Shown here: piece by piece, positions 5,137 through 13,038 of the stretch
Layout: each line of letters starts with the position of its first letter
How positions within the stretch are numbered: the stretch's first letter is position 1
Source of the DNA: Halostella salina
Lineage (GTDB): Archaea > Halobacteriota > Halobacteria > Halobacteriales > Natronoarchaeaceae
NCBI RefSeq assembly: GCF_003675855.1
Contig: NZ_RCIH01000001.1
Coordinates: 434,001 to 498,000, forward strand
DNA length: 64,000 nucleotides
Direction: 5' to 3'
Translations under genes and position numbers: made by a program
The notes under the pieces: generated by a model
The model's database searches: none
Seen by the model: only the letters and a program-made list of their open reading frames with translations
Told to the model about the DNA's origin: nothing

Positions 5137-5994
5137 ATGGGAATACTCTCTCGGGCCTCCTACGTCATCCGGTCGAAGGTCAACGCGGTGCTCAACCGCG
5201 CTGAGGACCCGACGGAGACGCTCGACTACTCGTACGAGCAGCTACGCGACGAGCTACAGGACGTGAAACGCGGCATCGCCGACCTGACGACCCAGAAGAA
5301 GCGCCTGGAGATGCAGAAGCGACGGCTGGAGGAGAACGTCGACAAGCACAACGAGCAGGCCCGCGAGGCCGTCCGGCAGGACCGCGACGACCTCGCGCGC
5401 CGTGCTCTGGAGAAGAAGAAGGCGAAGATGACGCAGATCGAGGAGCTGGAGGGCCAGATCGCCGACCTCCAGCAAACGCAGGACAACCTCGTCGAGAAGA
5501 AGGAGACCCTCCAGCAGCGCATCGAGGAGTTCCGGACGAAAAAGGAGACGATGAAGGCGCGCTACGAGGCCGCCGAGGCCAGCGCCCGCGTCTCCGAGGC
5601 GATGACCGGCGCGGGCGACGAAATGGAGGACGTGGGCCGGGCCATCGAGCGCGCCGAGGACCGGACCCAGGAGATGGAGGCCCGCTCGGCCGCCATGGAC
5701 GAACTGCAGGACGAGGGCGTGTTCGAGGACGCCCTCTCGGACAAGGACCAGCTGGACCGCGAACTGGAGGAGGTCCGGACCAGCGGCGCGGTCGACGCCG
5801 AACTCGACACGCTGAAAGCCGAGATGGACGCCGAGGAGGCCGAGACGGCGGAGGGTGACGGGACCGCGGACGCGGAGACCGAGCCGACGGAGGACGTGGA
5901 GTTCGAGACGGAGGGCGGCGGCGACGTCGACGTGGACGTCGACGAGTCCGAGGTGGAGTCGGAGCTAGAGGACCTCAAAAGCGAGGAGAAGTAG
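5137..5994 (+). CDS. pspA: PspA/IM30 (ESCRT-III-like) membrane-stress protein
   Basis: A 285-residue PspA/IM30 family protein, which in other organisms forms membrane-bound helical assemblies that protect a stressed membrane. The N-terminus MGILSRASYVIRSKVNAVLNRAEDP is the typical amphipathic helix and first hairpin. Residues of about 20-215 are a long, charged coiled coil. The last 60-70 residues form an extremely acidic tail rich in Asp and Glu, a common haloarchaeal addition. Monocistronic; it converges on the next gene and shares a large inverted repeat with it at 6017-6094. Confidence 0.93.
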   Translation: MGILSRASYVIRSKVNAVLNRAEDPTETLDYSYEQLRDELQDVKRGIADLTTQKKRLEMQKRRLEENVDKHNEQAREAVRQDRDDLARRALEKKKAKMTQIEELEGQIADLQQTQDNLVEKKETLQQRIEEFRTKKETMKARYEAAEASARVSEAMTGAGDEMEDVGRAIERAEDRTQEMEARSAAMDELQDEGVFEDALSDKDQLDRELEEVRTSGAVDAELDTLKAEMDAEEAETAEGDGTADAETEPTEDVEFETEGGGDVDVDVDESEVESELEDLKSEEK

Positions 5995-6095: not shown

Positions 6096-7124
6096 TCAGT
6101 CCACGTCGATCGTCTCCGCCCGGTCCGAGTCCCGGAGGATGAACGGTCCGATCGCGAGCGTCCGCTTCGCGACCGTGGCGATCCGGAGGACGAAGGAGAC
6201 GAGGATCAGGAACGGGAACACCGACACCGTCGCGGCGGCGCTGACGAGCCAGACGATGTTGTCGACGCCGAGCGTCGCGCCGGGGAACGACGTGGGGTCG
6301 AGAAAGAGGAGGGCGGAGGTCGAGACGAGCAGCGCCGGCACCGCGGCGTAGACGATGGCCCGCGAGAGGTTCACGAGCTCCCACTGGAAGTACAGCGTCT
6401 TGATGTGCTCCCGAGCCGGGCCGAACAGCGACAGCACGTCGACCAGGTCCTCCGCGGCCTTCGACGTCTCGTCGTCGAACTGGTCGCCGTACGTCCGTCT
6501 GAGCTGGTTCAGCTCGTAGATCTTCCAGGAGTAGTTGTAGTCGAGCGCGGCGTCTATCACGGCGAACGTGCCGAAGTCGGCGTCCTCGAGTCTGTCGCCG
6601 ACCGCCTCTGCGTTCCCGACGAGTTCGTCGACGTACCGGTTGACCTGGTCGCGGACCTCGCCGGAGCCCTCGGCTGCGTGGTCCTCGAACGCGTTCGCGC
6701 GGGTCTTCGTCGCCTCGACGAGCGCGCCGAGGAACGCTGCCGGTTCGGGCGGGGCCGCCGCGCCGATCACGTCGGCCACGTCGTCGCGGAAATCCATCGA
6801 CCCCTGCATCCGACCGCGCTGGTCGCCGAGCGGGCCGAGTTCCTGCGAGAGGACCACCTGATTGATCGTGACGACGAGGGTCACGCCAGTGATGATCGAG
6901 GTGATCATCGCCTGAAACGCGGTCTCGGCCGGGTCGGACCCCTCCATCGTCGCCCGGAGCGGCGACCCGTCGAGCGTGCCGAGAACGACGAGCGTGACGA
7001 ACACGGCCGCCGCCAGCACGCCGGCGACCGCCCACCGGTTGACGTGCATCAGGGCTCGCAGCCGGTATCGACTCTCGTCGGCCCGTTCGCGCATCGTGTC
7101 CGCCGGCGATGACTCGTCGGCCAT
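6096..7124 (-). CDS. Hypothetical four-helix membrane protein
   Basis: About 342 residues from the ATG at 7124 (MADESSPADTM); an upstream start at 7148 is possible but would lengthen a charged leader. Two hydrophobic segments lie near the N-terminus (WAVAGVLAAAVFVTLVVLG and AMITSIITGVTLVVTINQVVL). A soluble charged middle of about 140 residues follows, then two helices near the C-terminus (AIVYAAVPALLVSTSALLFL and IVWLVSAAATVSVFPFLILV). The family looks conserved in haloarchaea, but I do not recognise a function. Expressed toward pspA. Confidence 0.75.
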   Translation of the reverse strand: MADESSPADTMRERADESRYRLRALMHVNRWAVAGVLAAAVFVTLVVLGTLDGSPLRATMEGSDPAETAFQAMITSIITGVTLVVTINQVVLSQELGPLGDQRGRMQGSMDFRDDVADVIGAAAPPEPAAFLGALVEATKTRANAFEDHAAEGSGEVRDQVNRYVDELVGNAEAVGDRLEDADFGTFAVIDAALDYNYSWKIYELNQLRRTYGDQFDDETSKAAEDLVDVLSLFGPAREHIKTLYFQWELVNLSRAIVYAAVPALLVSTSALLFLDPTSFPGATLGVDNIVWLVSAAATVSVFPFLILVSFVLRIATVAKRTLAIGPFILRDSDRAETIDVD

Positions 7125-7201
7125 GCCGGATGGGTACGCGGGCATCACGGAAATGGCTACCCGACCGGAACGCTAAGGCGGTGGCCGTCCACGGCTCCGA
7201 C

Positions 7202-7390
7202 ATGCCGGACGCTCGCTACGAGTACGCCACCGAAGTGGTGTCGCTGTACCCCAACGCGCTCGACGCCGACCGGTTCGACGGGCTGTTGAACGACCGCGCG
7301 GCCGACGGCTGGGCGCTCGACCGGACGCTCGCTATCGACGAGTCGACGCTGCTGTTCGTCTTCCGCAGGCCCGCCGACACGGAGGCGTGA
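7202..7390 (+). CDS. Small DUF4177-like protein
   Basis: A 62-residue protein starting at the ATG at 7202 (MPDARYEYATEVV). The pattern YEYxTEVV, LNDRAADGWALDRTL and LLFVFRRP matches the small DUF4177 family, in which a Tyr-rich first strand is followed by LNxxGxxGWEL and a hydrophobic last strand. Its function is unknown. It starts divergently from the membrane protein ending at 6096 and lies 48 bases before the ThrRS-like gene, so the two could share a transcript. Confidence 0.75.
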   Translation: MPDARYEYATEVVSLYPNALDADRFDGLLNDRAADGWALDRTLAIDESTLLFVFRRPADTEA

Positions 7391-7438
7391 CCGGACCGCC
7401 GACGGCACCCTTTTCACCGCCCGCCGGGTTGCTCGACT

Positions 7439-8983
7439 ATGCGACTGCTGTACGCCCACGCCGACCGCGCAGCGGTCGACGCCGCCGACGGGGCGACGGC
7501 GGAACTCACCGACTGCGTGGCCGCGTTCGTCGCGGTCGAGCCGGGGGACGCCGCGGCCCCGGAAGCCGTCGCGACGAGCGCCGCTGACGAACTGCGGACG
7601 GTCGCGGACCGCCTCGGCGTCGACGGGGTCGTCCTCTACCGATGTCCGCACCTGCTCGACGCGGCGGCCGCCGAGGGTCCCGCAGCGACGGCCGTCGACG
7701 CGCTCGCCGAGCGACTCCCGGCCGACTACGACGTTCGGCGCGCACGGGTCGAGGGGGACGCCGGCGGCGCGGTCGACTGGCGCGGCCACCCGCTCGCGGT
7801 GGGCGGTTGCCGGGTCGGACCGGCGGCCGACAGCCTGCAGGCGGCTGACGACCGCGCGGTCGTAACGCCCTCTGGTGATCGGCGCGACCCGGGGACTGCG
7901 GACGGCACCCTCCGCGCGGTCGCGGACGCCGGTCGACCGTCGACGGATCCGCCGGGCGACGACCGCCTCCGCGAACTCGGCTTCCTCGCCGAGGACGGGG
8001 CGACCTGGCTCCCGCGGGGCGCGTTCGTCCGCGACGCGCTCGCCGCCCGCGCCGACGACCTGCTCGCCGAGGCGGGCGCGGTCCGCGTGGCGGCCGCCGA
8101 CTCCCACGAGGGACGGGGGCCGGCCGCATCCGTCCCGGCCGACATCGCTGACGCCGACCTGCCGGTGCGCCTCCGCGACCCGGGCGGCTGGCGCGGGGCC
8201 GACGCGCCGGAGATGGCCGTCGTCGTCGCGGACGCGACGGCCGGAGCGGACGAATTCAGACGGGCGGCTGCGATCGCCCGCGAGGCGGTCGGGGACCTCG
8301 GTGTCGACGCCGCCCCCGTCGTGCGGACGGTCGCGGGCGGGGCCGACGCCGGCCCGTCGTCGGCGGCCGTCGCCGCCGCGGTCGACGCGCCAGTCCTCGC
8401 CGAGACGCTCCCGATGCGGGTCGGGCGCTGGTCGACGGCGCTGGACTTCGTCGCCGTCGTCGACGGCCGCGCGGTTCGGACCGGCGCAGTCAGGTACGAC
8501 CCGCCGCGGAGCGACTCGGCCGACGGCGGGCCGTCGCGTCCGACCGTCCGCTGTGCGCCGGTCGGCCGGCTCGACGTGGCGATCCGGGCGACGGTCGCCG
8601 GAGATGGCGGCCTTCCGACGTGGCTCGCGCCGACGCAGGTCCGGCTCGTGCCGGTCGACGCGGGGCACGCCGAGCGCTGCGACGCCGTCGTCGCGGCGCT
8701 GTCCGAGTCGGGCGTCCGCGCGGACGTCGACGACCGCGAGCTATCAGTCGGCGACCGGATCGGCCGCGCCGAGGCGGCGGGCGTCCCCTACTACGCCGTC
8801 GTGGGGGAGCGCGAGGCTGGTGACGGGCCGCTCCCCGTGACCGAGCGGGCGAGCGGCCGCGAGTCGGCGATGACCGTCGCGGAACTGGCCGAAACCGTCC
8901 GCGAGGCGACGGCGGCCTATCCGTCGCGCCGACGGCCGCTGCCGGCGCGCCTGCGCGACTGGCCGCCGGTCGGCGGCGCGTAG
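7439..8983 (+). CDS. Threonyl-tRNA synthetase-like protein with decayed catalytic core
   Basis: A 514-residue paralogue of archaeal ThrRS. Residues 1-125 match the archaeal D-aminoacyl/serine editing domain (MRLLYAHAD start, H71 in a LYRCPHLL context, WRGHPLAV). Residues of about 170-394 still align with the class II core: WLPRGAFVRDAL resembles the motif-1 region, LPVRLRD precedes motif 2, and PVGRLDVAIRATV precedes WLAPTQV. The motif 2 FRxE and motif 3 GSxER arginines are replaced, and no Cys-His-His zinc set is visible. Residues 395-505 are a good HGTP anticodon-binding domain (DVDDRELSVGDRIGRAE, VPYYAVVG). It is shorter than a working ThrRS (about 640). Aminoacylation is unlikely; a tRNA-binding or editing-related role is inference. 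Confidence 0.8.
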   Translation: MRLLYAHADRAAVDAADGATAELTDCVAAFVAVEPGDAAAPEAVATSAADELRTVADRLGVDGVVLYRCPHLLDAAAAEGPAATAVDALAERLPADYDVRRARVEGDAGGAVDWRGHPLAVGGCRVGPAADSLQAADDRAVVTPSGDRRDPGTADGTLRAVADAGRPSTDPPGDDRLRELGFLAEDGATWLPRGAFVRDALAARADDLLAEAGAVRVAAADSHEGRGPAASVPADIADADLPVRLRDPGGWRGADAPEMAVVVADATAGADEFRRAAAIAREAVGDLGVDAAPVVRTVAGGADAGPSSAAVAAAVDAPVLAETLPMRVGRWSTALDFVAVVDGRAVRTGAVRYDPPRSDSADGGPSRPTVRCAPVGRLDVAIRATVAGDGGLPTWLAPTQVRLVPVDAGHAERCDAVVAALSESGVRADVDDRELSVGDRIGRAEAAGVPYYAVVGEREAGDGPLPVTERASGRESAMTVAELAETVREATAAYPSRRRPLPARLRDWPPVGGA

Positions 8984-10043: not shown

Positions 10044-11084
10044 TCAGCGCGGGACTGCACCGGTCCCCGGCCGGTCGACCGACGCGAGGTCGATCACGCC
10101 GTCGGGCATCGGCACGCCGGCGAACGGGTCACGGTCGAGCAGGAGCGAGCCGTCCAGGTCGGCGTAGTCGAGCAGCGGCGCGAGGTGGGCCCCCGCGGCG
10201 ATGGAGGCGTTGCTCTCGACCATGCAGCCGAGCATCACCTCCAGCCCCTGCGCTCGGGCGGCGTGGACCATCCGTCGGGCCTCGGCGAGGCCGCCGCATT
10301 TCATCAGCTTGATCGTGACGATGTCGGTCCGGTCGGCGACGCGGGGCACGTCGTCGACGGTCACGCAGGACTCGTCGGCGGCTATCGGCAGTGCCGACCG
10401 CTCGTACACGAACTGTAGCCCCTCGGGATTCTCCGCGGGCACCGGCTGTTCGATGAACTCCACGCCGTAGTCGGCCAGCGTCTCGGACATGCGGACGGCC
10501 TCGCGGGGCGTCCACGCCTCGTTGGCGTCGACCCGGATCCGGGCGTCGGGGGCCGCCGAGCGCACCGCGTCGACGACGGCCTCGTCGCGGTCGGTGCCGA
10601 CTTTCACCTTCAGCACCTCGTGGCCGGCAGCGACCGCGTCCGCGGCCTTCTCGTGCATGCGGTCCGGGTCGTCCAGCCCGATCGTAAAGGAGGTGCTGAC
10701 GGTCCGGTCCGGGTCCAGCCCCCAGTAGCGGTACAGCGGCAGGTCGGCGCGCTTGGCGATCAGGTCGTGGAGGGCGATGCTGACGGCACAGCGCGCCGCG
10801 GGGTTGTCCCGGACCGTTTCGCGCATACGGCGCTCGATCCGCTGTCGCTGGTGGGGATCGCCCACGTCCTCGACGACGGACAGCAGGTCCGGCAGCACCG
10901 CTGCGACGGTGTCGGCCGTCTCGCCGTAGTGGCGCGCGGGGGCCGCGCCGCCGACGCCGACCCGGCCCTCGTCGTCCGCGACCCGGACGACGACGTTCTC
11001 CGAGACGGTCTGGGTGCCGCGGGCGATGGTGAAGGGAGTCTCCAGCGGCAGCTCCAGCCGCTCGAACGACGCGGAGAGCGTCAC
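10044..11084 (-). CDS. dgcA: DgcA-like N-acetyl-D-glutamate racemase (enolase superfamily)
   Basis: A 346-residue mandelate racemase/muconate lactonizing-type enzyme of the dipeptide-epimerase branch. The GTG start at 11084 overlaps the stop of the upstream gene (GTGA), so the long upstream frame is not part of it. The barrel carries the KxK base motif in EVLKVKVGTD, metal ligands in IRVDANEAW, FIEQPV and AADESC, and the second-base strand DIVTIKLMKCGG. In the DgcN-DgcA pathway known from marine proteobacteria and halophilic archaea, DgcA interconverts N-acetyl-D- and N-acetyl-L-glutamate. Direct pairing with a DUF1611 gene supports that role over Ala-Glu dipeptide epimerisation, which remains the alternative. 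Confidence 0.82.
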   Translation of the reverse strand: MTLSASFERLELPLETPFTIARGTQTVSENVVVRVADDEGRVGVGGAAPARHYGETADTVAAVLPDLLSVVEDVGDPHQRQRIERRMRETVRDNPAARCAVSIALHDLIAKRADLPLYRYWGLDPDRTVSTSFTIGLDDPDRMHEKAADAVAAGHEVLKVKVGTDRDEAVVDAVRSAAPDARIRVDANEAWTPREAVRMSETLADYGVEFIEQPVPAENPEGLQFVYERSALPIAADESCVTVDDVPRVADRTDIVTIKLMKCGGLAEARRMVHAARAQGLEVMLGCMVESNASIAAGAHLAPLLDYADLDGSLLLDRDPFAGVPMPDGVIDLASVDRPGTGAVPR

Positions 11085-12094
11085 AGCACCGCCTCCAGCA
11101 CGGCGTCGGGGTCGAATCTGACGAGGTCCGCGGCCGGCGCGTCGAGCGCATCGCCGAACTCGGCGACCGCCTCGCGGGCCGCGTCGTCGCCGGCCACGTC
11201 CATCGTGTTCAGCGCCCCGGCGACGACGGTCCCCTCGTGGACCGGCGCGGCGAGCGACTCGTACAGGTCGACGTACGTCGGGAGGGCGGGCAGACGGAAC
11301 TCCTCGTACCCGTGGATCCGCTCCCGGCCGGCGCGGTGACAGAGCACCATCCGGTCCGGCATCGCGCCGTGGAGGATGCCGCAGGTCACCGCGGAGTACG
11401 CCGGGTGGACGATGCTCCCCTGCCCCTCCACGAACAGGTAGTCGTGGTCGTCGCCTTTTTCCACGATCATCTCCTCGACCGCCCCGGCGGTGAAGTCGCT
11501 GACGACGCGGTCGACGGGGTTCCCCCACCCCTCGACCATGATCCCCGTCTGGCCCGTCGGGACCACGGCGGCGTCGTGGCCACGCTCGCGGGCGGCCGCG
11601 GCGAGTTCCATCGTCGTCGTCATCTTCCCGACCGAGCAGTCCGTGCCGACCGTGAGGATCACTTCGGCGTCGACCTCGCGGGCGACGCCGTCGGCGACGG
11701 TCAGGTCGTCTGGCGGGCGGCGCACGTCCCGGAGTTCGCAGCCGTGCTCGTCGGCGAGCCGGGCGAATTCGTCGTCGTCCGCGAGGAAGTAGTGGAGCCC
11801 GGCGACAACGTCACAGCCCCGCTCCAGCGCGGCGCGCACGTCCGACCGCCACGACTCGTCGAAGCCGCCGCCGATCGGCGCGATGCCGATCAGGAGCGCG
11901 TCGACCGCGCCGACATCGTCCATCGATCCGACGATCGGCGCGTCCTGTACGTCCGGCACGTGGTCGCTCACGCGCTCGCCGGCGCGGTCCCGGTCGAGGA
12001 CGGCGGTGACCTCGTGGTCGCCGTACCGCAGGACGCCGAGCGCCGTCTTGGCGCGGCCGGGGAACTGCTCGTGTGCGAGGATCGCGATGCGCAT
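11081..12094 (-). CDS. dgcN: DgcN-like D-glutamate N-acetyltransferase (DUF1611)
   Basis: A 337-residue DUF1611 family protein starting at MRIAILAHEQFPG (ATG at 12094). It has a Rossmann-like N-terminal domain and a P-loop-like C-terminal domain with LTVGTDCSVGKMTTTMELA, a variant Walker A, then VVPTGQTGIMVEGWG, FVEGQGSIVHPAYSAVT and LCHRAGRERIHGYEEF. DgcN enzymes acetylate D-glutamate using acetyl-CoA. It is translationally coupled to dgcA, which would racemise the product so that nitrogen and carbon can enter L-glutamate metabolism. A deacetylase for the last step is not visible in this window. Confidence 0.82.
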   Translation of the reverse strand: MRIAILAHEQFPGRAKTALGVLRYGDHEVTAVLDRDRAGERVSDHVPDVQDAPIVGSMDDVGAVDALLIGIAPIGGGFDESWRSDVRAALERGCDVVAGLHYFLADDDEFARLADEHGCELRDVRRPPDDLTVADGVAREVDAEVILTVGTDCSVGKMTTTMELAAAARERGHDAAVVPTGQTGIMVEGWGNPVDRVVSDFTAGAVEEMIVEKGDDHDYLFVEGQGSIVHPAYSAVTCGILHGAMPDRMVLCHRAGRERIHGYEEFRLPALPTYVDLYESLAAPVHEGTVVAGALNTMDVAGDDAAREAVAEFGDALDAPAADLVRFDPDAVLEAVL

Positions 12095-12147: not shown

Positions 12148-13038
12148 TCAGATCCGGTACAGCGTCGTCGTCCAGAAGTCGTAGAACGCCTCCTCTAAGG
12201 CGTCCTCGGGGTCGCCGGTCGCGTCGACGGCGGCGGTCGCTGTCGCCTCGGCGTCGACGTCGTCCAGCACGGTGGACTCGCCGACGAGCACCAGCCGGTC
12301 GGCGTCGCGGTCGGCGAGCGCCGCCTCCGCGCGTTCGACGTGGTCGGCGACCTGCTCGTCCCGGCGGCGCTCGAAGCGGGCCTGCGAGAAGCCGCCCTTC
12401 GAGTGGTTCCCCTTCACGTCGCTCTCGAACGCCGTCGTCGCGACGCGCTCCCGGCCGTCGTACTCGCCGAGCGCGAACAGGTCCGCCCGGACCACGGCGA
12501 ACGCGAACCGACCCGTCGGCAGGAACCACTCGCGGTCGAGTTCGAACCCGTCGTCCCACGCGGCGAAGGTGTCCGGGGCGACCGGCGGGTCGAACGCCGC
12601 GCTCACGACGCCGGCGTCGTCCGTGACGGCGAGGCAGGGGCCGGCGCGGTCGACCAGCGGCGCGCGGTCGCCGAACACCTCGCGGACCGCGTCCGGGACC
12701 GTCCCGTCGACCATCGCGGTCAGCGCGCCCTCCGGCCCGGCGTCGACGCTGGCGAGGCGGTCCAGCACCGCGGCGAGGCGGTCGCCCCGAAGCTCCTCGA
12801 CGCCGCGGTAGTCGAGCGCCGCGTCGTCGTCGCCGCCAGCCCGCTCGACGCGGTCCTCTAGCTCGGCCACCCGGTCCTCGAGTCGGTTGACGCGCTCCTC
12901 GGCGTCCTGCCGGGCGCTGACGGCGTCGGCACGGCGCTCGGACTCGGCCTCCAGCTGCCGCTCCAGATGTCGCTTCTCCTCCTCCAGCTCGTCGATGCGC
13001 TCCTTCAGCGCCGCCCGCCCGAGCAACTCGTCGAGCAT
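12148..13038 (-). CDS. Vms1/ANKZF1-like peptidyl-tRNA hydrolase (eRF1-like VLRF1 fold)
   Basis: A 296-residue protein. Residues of about 10-65 form a coiled coil (KERIDELEEEKRHLERQLE, then heptads). The rest is an eRF1-like domain with the segment SKGGFSQARFERRRDEQ; Gln219 in GGFSQ corresponds to the catalytic Gln of the Vms1/ANKZF1 family, and RLVLVGEST lies on the next core strand. In eukaryotes these enzymes release nascent chains from stalled 60S ribosomes. An archaeal ribosome-rescue role is inferred by homology. It has the same orientation as dgcN-dgcA with a 53-base gap. Confidence 0.78.
   Translation of the reverse strand: MLDELLGRAALKERIDELEEEKRHLERQLEAESERRADAVSARQDAEERVNRLEDRVAELEDRVERAGGDDDAALDYRGVEELRGDRLAAVLDRLASVDAGPEGALTAMVDGTVPDAVREVFGDRAPLVDRAGPCLAVTDDAGVVSAAFDPPVAPDTFAAWDDGFELDREWFLPTGRFAFAVVRADLFALGEYDGRERVATTAFESDVKGNHSKGGFSQARFERRRDEQVADHVERAEAALADRDADRLVLVGESTVLDDVDAEATATAAVDATGDPEDALEEAFYDFWTTTLYRI

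Follow-up and report, generated by a model that had tools for sequence, protein, structure and literature searches.

The gene at 7439..8983 of the window, as we call the whole 64,000-nucleotide stretch of Halostella salina DNA analysed here, raises the question of what becomes of a threonyl-tRNA synthetase (ThrRS) whose active site has been gutted, and of what such a protein might still do. The gene and its domains are as follows.

7439..8983, plus strand: gutted archaeal-type ThrRS (ThrRS-R form), 514 aa, ATG start
7481..7798, plus strand: archaeal ThrRS editing domain (tRNA-Thr_ED), residues 15-120 (Pfam PF08915, E 9.1e-11)
8006..8602, plus strand: class II core remnant, residues about 190-388, from alignment with intact copies
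8612..8905, plus strand: anticodon-binding domain, residues 392-489 (Pfam PF03129 HGTP_anticodon at 400-489, E 2.7e-17)

The first-pass annotation had traced editing, core and anticodon regions in order and had concluded that motif 2, motif 3 and the zinc ligands were gone. Both points were borne out. The two ends of the protein are matched by Pfam, the core between them has shrunk, and the Pfam family of the class II core (PF00587) found no match in the 514-aa protein. Alignment with intact haloarchaeal archaeal-type ThrRS, which are 609-623 aa long and thus exceed the window protein by about 100 residues, revealed that the stretch carrying the zinc Cys and the entire motif 2 loop are deleted, that the Glu and Arg of motif 3 are replaced by Asp and Val, and that the remaining zinc ligands have become Ala and Arg. 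The motif-1-side WLPRG..VRD segment is among the best preserved parts of the core remnant. Measured by the columns that do not vary among the 26 intact copies, retention in the window protein is 36/140 for the core, 23/51 for the editing domain and 32/37 for the anticodon domain. The NCBIfam model of archaeal ThrRS (NF003068) gives 161.6 bits over residues 256-506, below its cut-off of 484. The assignment to ThrRS-R is to be read as follows: the editing and anticodon domains are present; the motif 2 Arg, the motif 3 Arg and the zinc ligands are absent.

We also looked for active-site residues conserved at shifted positions, as would be expected if the protein were still an active ThrRS. None were found: the motif 2 and zinc-Cys segments are missing altogether rather than displaced, the motif 3 Arg and the zinc His are gone, and PF00587 is not recognized, so that the probability of an active enzyme with relocated catalytic residues is, in our judgement, practically nil.

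The genome does contain a normal thrS elsewhere, as had been anticipated, and it is of the bacterial type (ThrRS-C). Indeed, C1:299624-301567 encodes a complete enzyme with TGS, tRNA_SAD, class II core and anticodon domains, whose motifs are intact (HxxxH and CxxxH for editing, MNCPGH, YRKEQRGE and GSYER). Intact archaeal-type copies are about 30% identical to the bacterial-type enzyme, and the only archaeal editing domain in the genome is that of the window gene. Since the working ThrRS is of bacterial type, with a TGS domain and an editing domain of its own, the window gene is not its duplicate. The description as a full-length pseudo-synthetase thus stands, while the term 'paralogue' does not. 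Judged from its sequence and position, the window gene is the displaced native archaeal-type enzyme, still in its ancestral locus.

The order of genes in the window is PyrG, a hydrolase, PspA, a membrane protein, a small ORF and the gutted thrS, followed to the right by a BAT/HTH regulator, a HalOD1 protein, DgcA, DgcN and a VLRF1-like protein.

5137..5994, plus strand: PspA/IM30, left border of the ancestral slot
6096..7148, minus strand: 350-aa membrane-like protein, recurrent left neighbour (families f1, f4 and f8), no Pfam match
7109..7390, plus strand: small ORF, 93 aa as listed, start possibly at 7204, directly upstream of the gutted gene
10047..12094, minus strand: genes that we take to be DgcA- and DgcN-like, right border of the slot
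12148-13038, minus strand: VLRF1 release-factor family (acVLRF1), conserved neighbour (E 3e-32)

Among the loci compared, the small ORF upstream of the gutted gene occurs in the window genus only. The VLRF1-like neighbour is a further translation-related gene within the block. The slot itself is shared: the gutted copies of f1 and f4 occupy it, and in three f8 genomes (G069, G127 and G355) an intact archaeal-type thrS lies between PspA and DgcA/DgcN. The PspA side is common to the intact f3 copies (G049, G088, G141, G162, G276 and G200), and the DgcA/DgcN side to most f7 copies.

When sequences from other archaea were added as outgroups, the tree gathered all gutted copies into one clade nested in Halorussus; a Halorussus-only clade was rejected. 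Taken at face value, a one-clade tree requires either a single ancient event or gene transfer into the other families. However, the gutted groups scatter when placed one at a time, and long branches dominate, so that the gutted copies may go back to one degeneration or to several. The common slot suggests vertical descent and speaks against horizontal transfer out of Halorussus.

How widespread such copies are was determined in two rounds. The editing-domain family was first run against 116 haloarchaeal genomes, which gave 10; in the main survey, a profile of gutted copies was run against 391 haloarchaeal genomes and each gene was then read out. This yielded 26 intact and 19 gutted full-length archaeal-type copies, along with a copy split across two contig ends (G163) and fragments with stops (G337). 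Most of the 391 genomes lack the archaeal-type gene, which is consequently dispensable over long time scales. Searching the same genomes with a bacterial-type query showed that 15 intact copies are the sole ThrRS, with catalytic residues kept in all 15 genomes, and that 11 intact copies and 19/19 gutted ones sit beside a bacterial-type ThrRS. The window genus has a gutted copy in 5/5 genomes, and a relative was found in Halorussus marinus LYG-36; the plasmid records searched held no full-length relative. The copies thus form a graded series from intact and co-resident (Halorussus) through gutted and fragmentary (G337) to absent in most genomes.

Note that in G069, G127 and G355 the intact archaeal- and bacterial-type thrS genes are adjacent and divergent, about 240 bp apart, and that the archaeal-type copies there are strongly constrained (dN/dS about 0.1); each of these genomes apparently has two working ThrRS forms. 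Two Halorussus copies counted as intact carry substitutions, K121T in G173 and the core changes D428E and Q445E in G373, which may be early signs of decay in the presence of the bacterial-type enzyme. Four genomes of one non-haloarchaeal family (G398, G407, G416 and G425) encode a second archaeal-type ThrRS without editing domain (477-513 aa).

The constant company of ThrRS-C, together with the precedent of Anabaena T1/T2 (PMC4787780), could mean that the gutted protein forms a dimer with the bacterial-type ThrRS and modulates it as a subunit, the more so as class II enzymes dimerise via the motif 1 region, where WxPRG..VRD is well preserved. Co-occurrence is, however, also predicted by displacement alone, identity between the archaeal and bacterial forms is only about 30%, and the structure predicted from two sequences was unusable and was set aside (mean pLDDT 38.6). 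We hold such a subunit to be improbable.

As to the editing site, two features are relevant.

7649..7651, plus strand: H71, aligned with His83 of the Pyrococcus editing domain
7757..7762, plus strand: D107-A108, replacing the editing pair Tyr120-Lys121, from alignment

The Tyr-Lys pair had been reported absent and H71 present, and the alignment agrees: ahead of the GHPL strand, the window protein reads VEGDA in place of FGWYK. Tyr and Lys are both missing in 19/19 gutted copies. The His equivalent to H71, kept in the window protein and in some gutted copies, is lost in many relatives and is therefore not a conserved feature of the group. In the Pyrococcus domain, the Y120A and E134A variants still edit, K121M is inactive though it binds substrate, and H83A is inactive, while the corresponding substitution is moderate in Aeropyrum (PMC4491819). 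Since Y120A still edits and K121M does not, loss of the Tyr alone should be harmless and loss of the Lys probably is not; by analogy with the published mutant, in which Lys is replaced by Met and not, as in the window protein, by Ala, this loss probably abolishes editing, and the editing site of the window protein is probably dead.

These residues bear directly on whether the protein could be a trans-editing factor of the ThrRS-ed kind, clearing Ser-tRNA(Thr). Like ThrRS-ed, it has an editing and an anticodon domain but lacks a catalytic core; it has also kept H71, and Tyr120 and Glu134 are dispensable (PMC4491819). Nevertheless, Lys121, whose change to Met inactivates the domain, is lost in the window protein and in all 18 gutted relatives, the working ThrRS has its own tRNA_SAD domain with HxxxH and CxxxH, and the ThrRS-ed model gives 81.6 bits against a cut-off of 362, all of which makes a trans-editing role very improbable.

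Upstream of the gene lies a short conserved element.

7403..7414, plus strand: upstream box CGGCACCCTTTT, starting 36 bp before the ATG, common to intact archaeal-type thrS

With 9/11 matching bases as the minimum for a kept box, GGCACNCTTTT is present in 13/17 of the gutted copies examined, its first base lying 35-37 bp ahead of the ATG, and likewise in many intact copies. Across genera, positions -36 to -24 are 52% identical, compared to 25-28% in the distal upstream flanks. The window contains GGCACNCTTTT once and the genome twice, and the longer form CGGCACNCTTTTNNC is found once in the genome; the other genomic GGCACNCTTTT (G000:C3:355844, minus strand) is upstream of a Trm112-like ORF (59-64 aa). 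The box was not found within 100 bp before the start of the bacterial-type thrS. Its position fits what we take to be the arrangement of a BRE/TATA pair in a leaderless haloarchaeal transcript, and it is the probable core promoter of such a transcript.

Is the gene still under selection? Pooled dN/dS values, obtained by the NG86 method, which is crude for GC-rich genomes, came to 0.49 (0.46-0.53) across six pairs of gutted copies; pairs of intact copies gave 0.10, and the Halorussus copies that are intact but co-resident 0.25; the genes neighbouring the window pair gave 0.08-0.28, two small genes excepted. The domains of the gutted copies (core 0.52, editing 0.46, anticodon 0.37) rank in the reverse order of those of the intact copies (core 0.07, editing 0.08, anticodon 0.16). 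In the window pair, changes at third codon positions are about twice as frequent as at the first two. Internal stops are lacking in 18/19 gutted genes, whereas 2-7 would be expected per pair under random differences, and the indels preserve the frame. In G118, a member of the window genus with an incomplete assembly (89% complete), there is an internal stop at the codon before RLRASAC, and an invariant Trp of the anticodon domain is changed to Arg; this copy is perhaps on its way out, or the stop is an assembly error.

These patterns suggest that the gene has been maintained by selection, albeit weak, after catalysis was lost. Open frames, a dN/dS of about 0.5 and a kept box together point to an expressed, catalytically dead protein as most likely, rather than to a dead gene. 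A passive relic, i.e. a displaced gene without dedicated function that decays slowly and is kept for now by weak selection, for instance against a misfolded or poisonous product, would also account for a dN/dS far above the 0.10 of intact copies, for the gradient from the Halorussus copies (0.25) to the G337 fragments and to absence, and for the stop in G118. It sits less well with frames that remain open at 30-40% identity between genera, with the reversed domain constraint and with the retention of the box; it is the strongest competing reading, though we regard it as rather unlikely.

The anticodon domain is the best preserved part of the gutted copies. It had been called clean, which is correct insofar as it is well preserved; yet it is not unchanged. 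Two residues constant in intact enzymes (numbered as in the intact G049 copy) are mostly altered in the gutted clade: E541 is lost or shifted in 19/19 copies, and W554 is changed in 14/19. They align at or beside E. coli N575/E576 and R589, residues that we take to be close to the anticodon. The changes at E541 and W554 weaken the case for reading of the tRNA(Thr) anticodon: the fold would be kept, while recognition of the threonine anticodon may have been lost.

Our preferred explanation, which we consider likely, is that the window gene encodes the native ThrRS-R, displaced by a ThrRS-C encoded elsewhere, catalytically dead but still made, with a role left to its anticodon domain. The bacterial-type ThrRS-C would have taken over threonine charging from the native archaeal-type enzyme, and the displaced ThrRS-R would have stayed in the ancestral slot with its old promoter while losing the synthetic site and the editing Lys. 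Going by the published mutants, it should edit little or not at all; it would still be made and folded, its anticodon domain carrying the remaining role. More tentatively, and as our first guess at this role, the protein might bind an anticodon-arm-like RNA, either tRNA(Thr) or an mRNA mimic, and act as a regulator or holdase rather than as an enzyme. We put forward with the same reserve the broader idea that, in several haloarchaeal families, a displaced synthetase has turned into a conserved non-catalytic RNA-binding protein under its old promoter; if so, this RNA-binding shell possibly controls threonine charging or the new ThrRS.

When one synthetase form replaces another, as a rule only the before and the after can be observed, and the intermediate stage is rarely seen. 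Haloarchaea show the stages together: the archaeal form alone, both forms intact, a gutted copy with the new enzyme, fragments and loss. It thereby becomes testable what selection retains once an essential enzyme is redundant, and whether a leftover anticodon domain gains a job.

Two archaeal ThrRS forms were described in 2011, the common one in most Halobacteriales and the rare one in Halorhabdus utahensis; that survey found no archaeal genome with both and expected a phase of co-existence (PMC3191353). The two forms are also treated in PMC4427996. Our literature search, itself incomplete, found no papers on haloarchaeal genomes with both forms or with gutted copies. Compared to ThrRS-R such as that of H. 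utahensis (PMC3191353), the window protein has the same domain order, and it shares its slot and box with intact haloarchaeal copies, but it is about 100 residues shorter, has lost the synthetic and editing sites and coexists with ThrRS-C. Crenarchaeal ThrRS-ed (NF011500), a Ser-tRNA(Thr) hydrolase, likewise combines editing and anticodon domains without a working core. The architecture is therefore closer to the crenarchaeal split than had been claimed; the claimed distinctness holds for function, since the editing Lys is lost (Ala108) and the partner ThrRS-C edits by itself. Displaced or duplicated archaeal synthetases are also exemplified by the divergent LeuRS of Halobacteriales (PMC3436685) and by LeuRS-I of Sulfolobaceae, which binds tRNA without aminoacylating it and whose editing domain is damaged (PMC9437257); these are, however, different synthetases, and LeuRS-I still forms the adenylate. 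HisZ and SLIMP (PMC9437257) have a synthetase fold without aminoacylation, as here, and both have a known partner or role. Anabaena similarly has two ThrRS per genome, one with a degenerate domain, but T2 still aminoacylates (PMC4787780), which is not expected of the gutted protein. The gutted ThrRS-R belongs with the pseudo-synthetases and displaced homeoalleles, which are known kinds.
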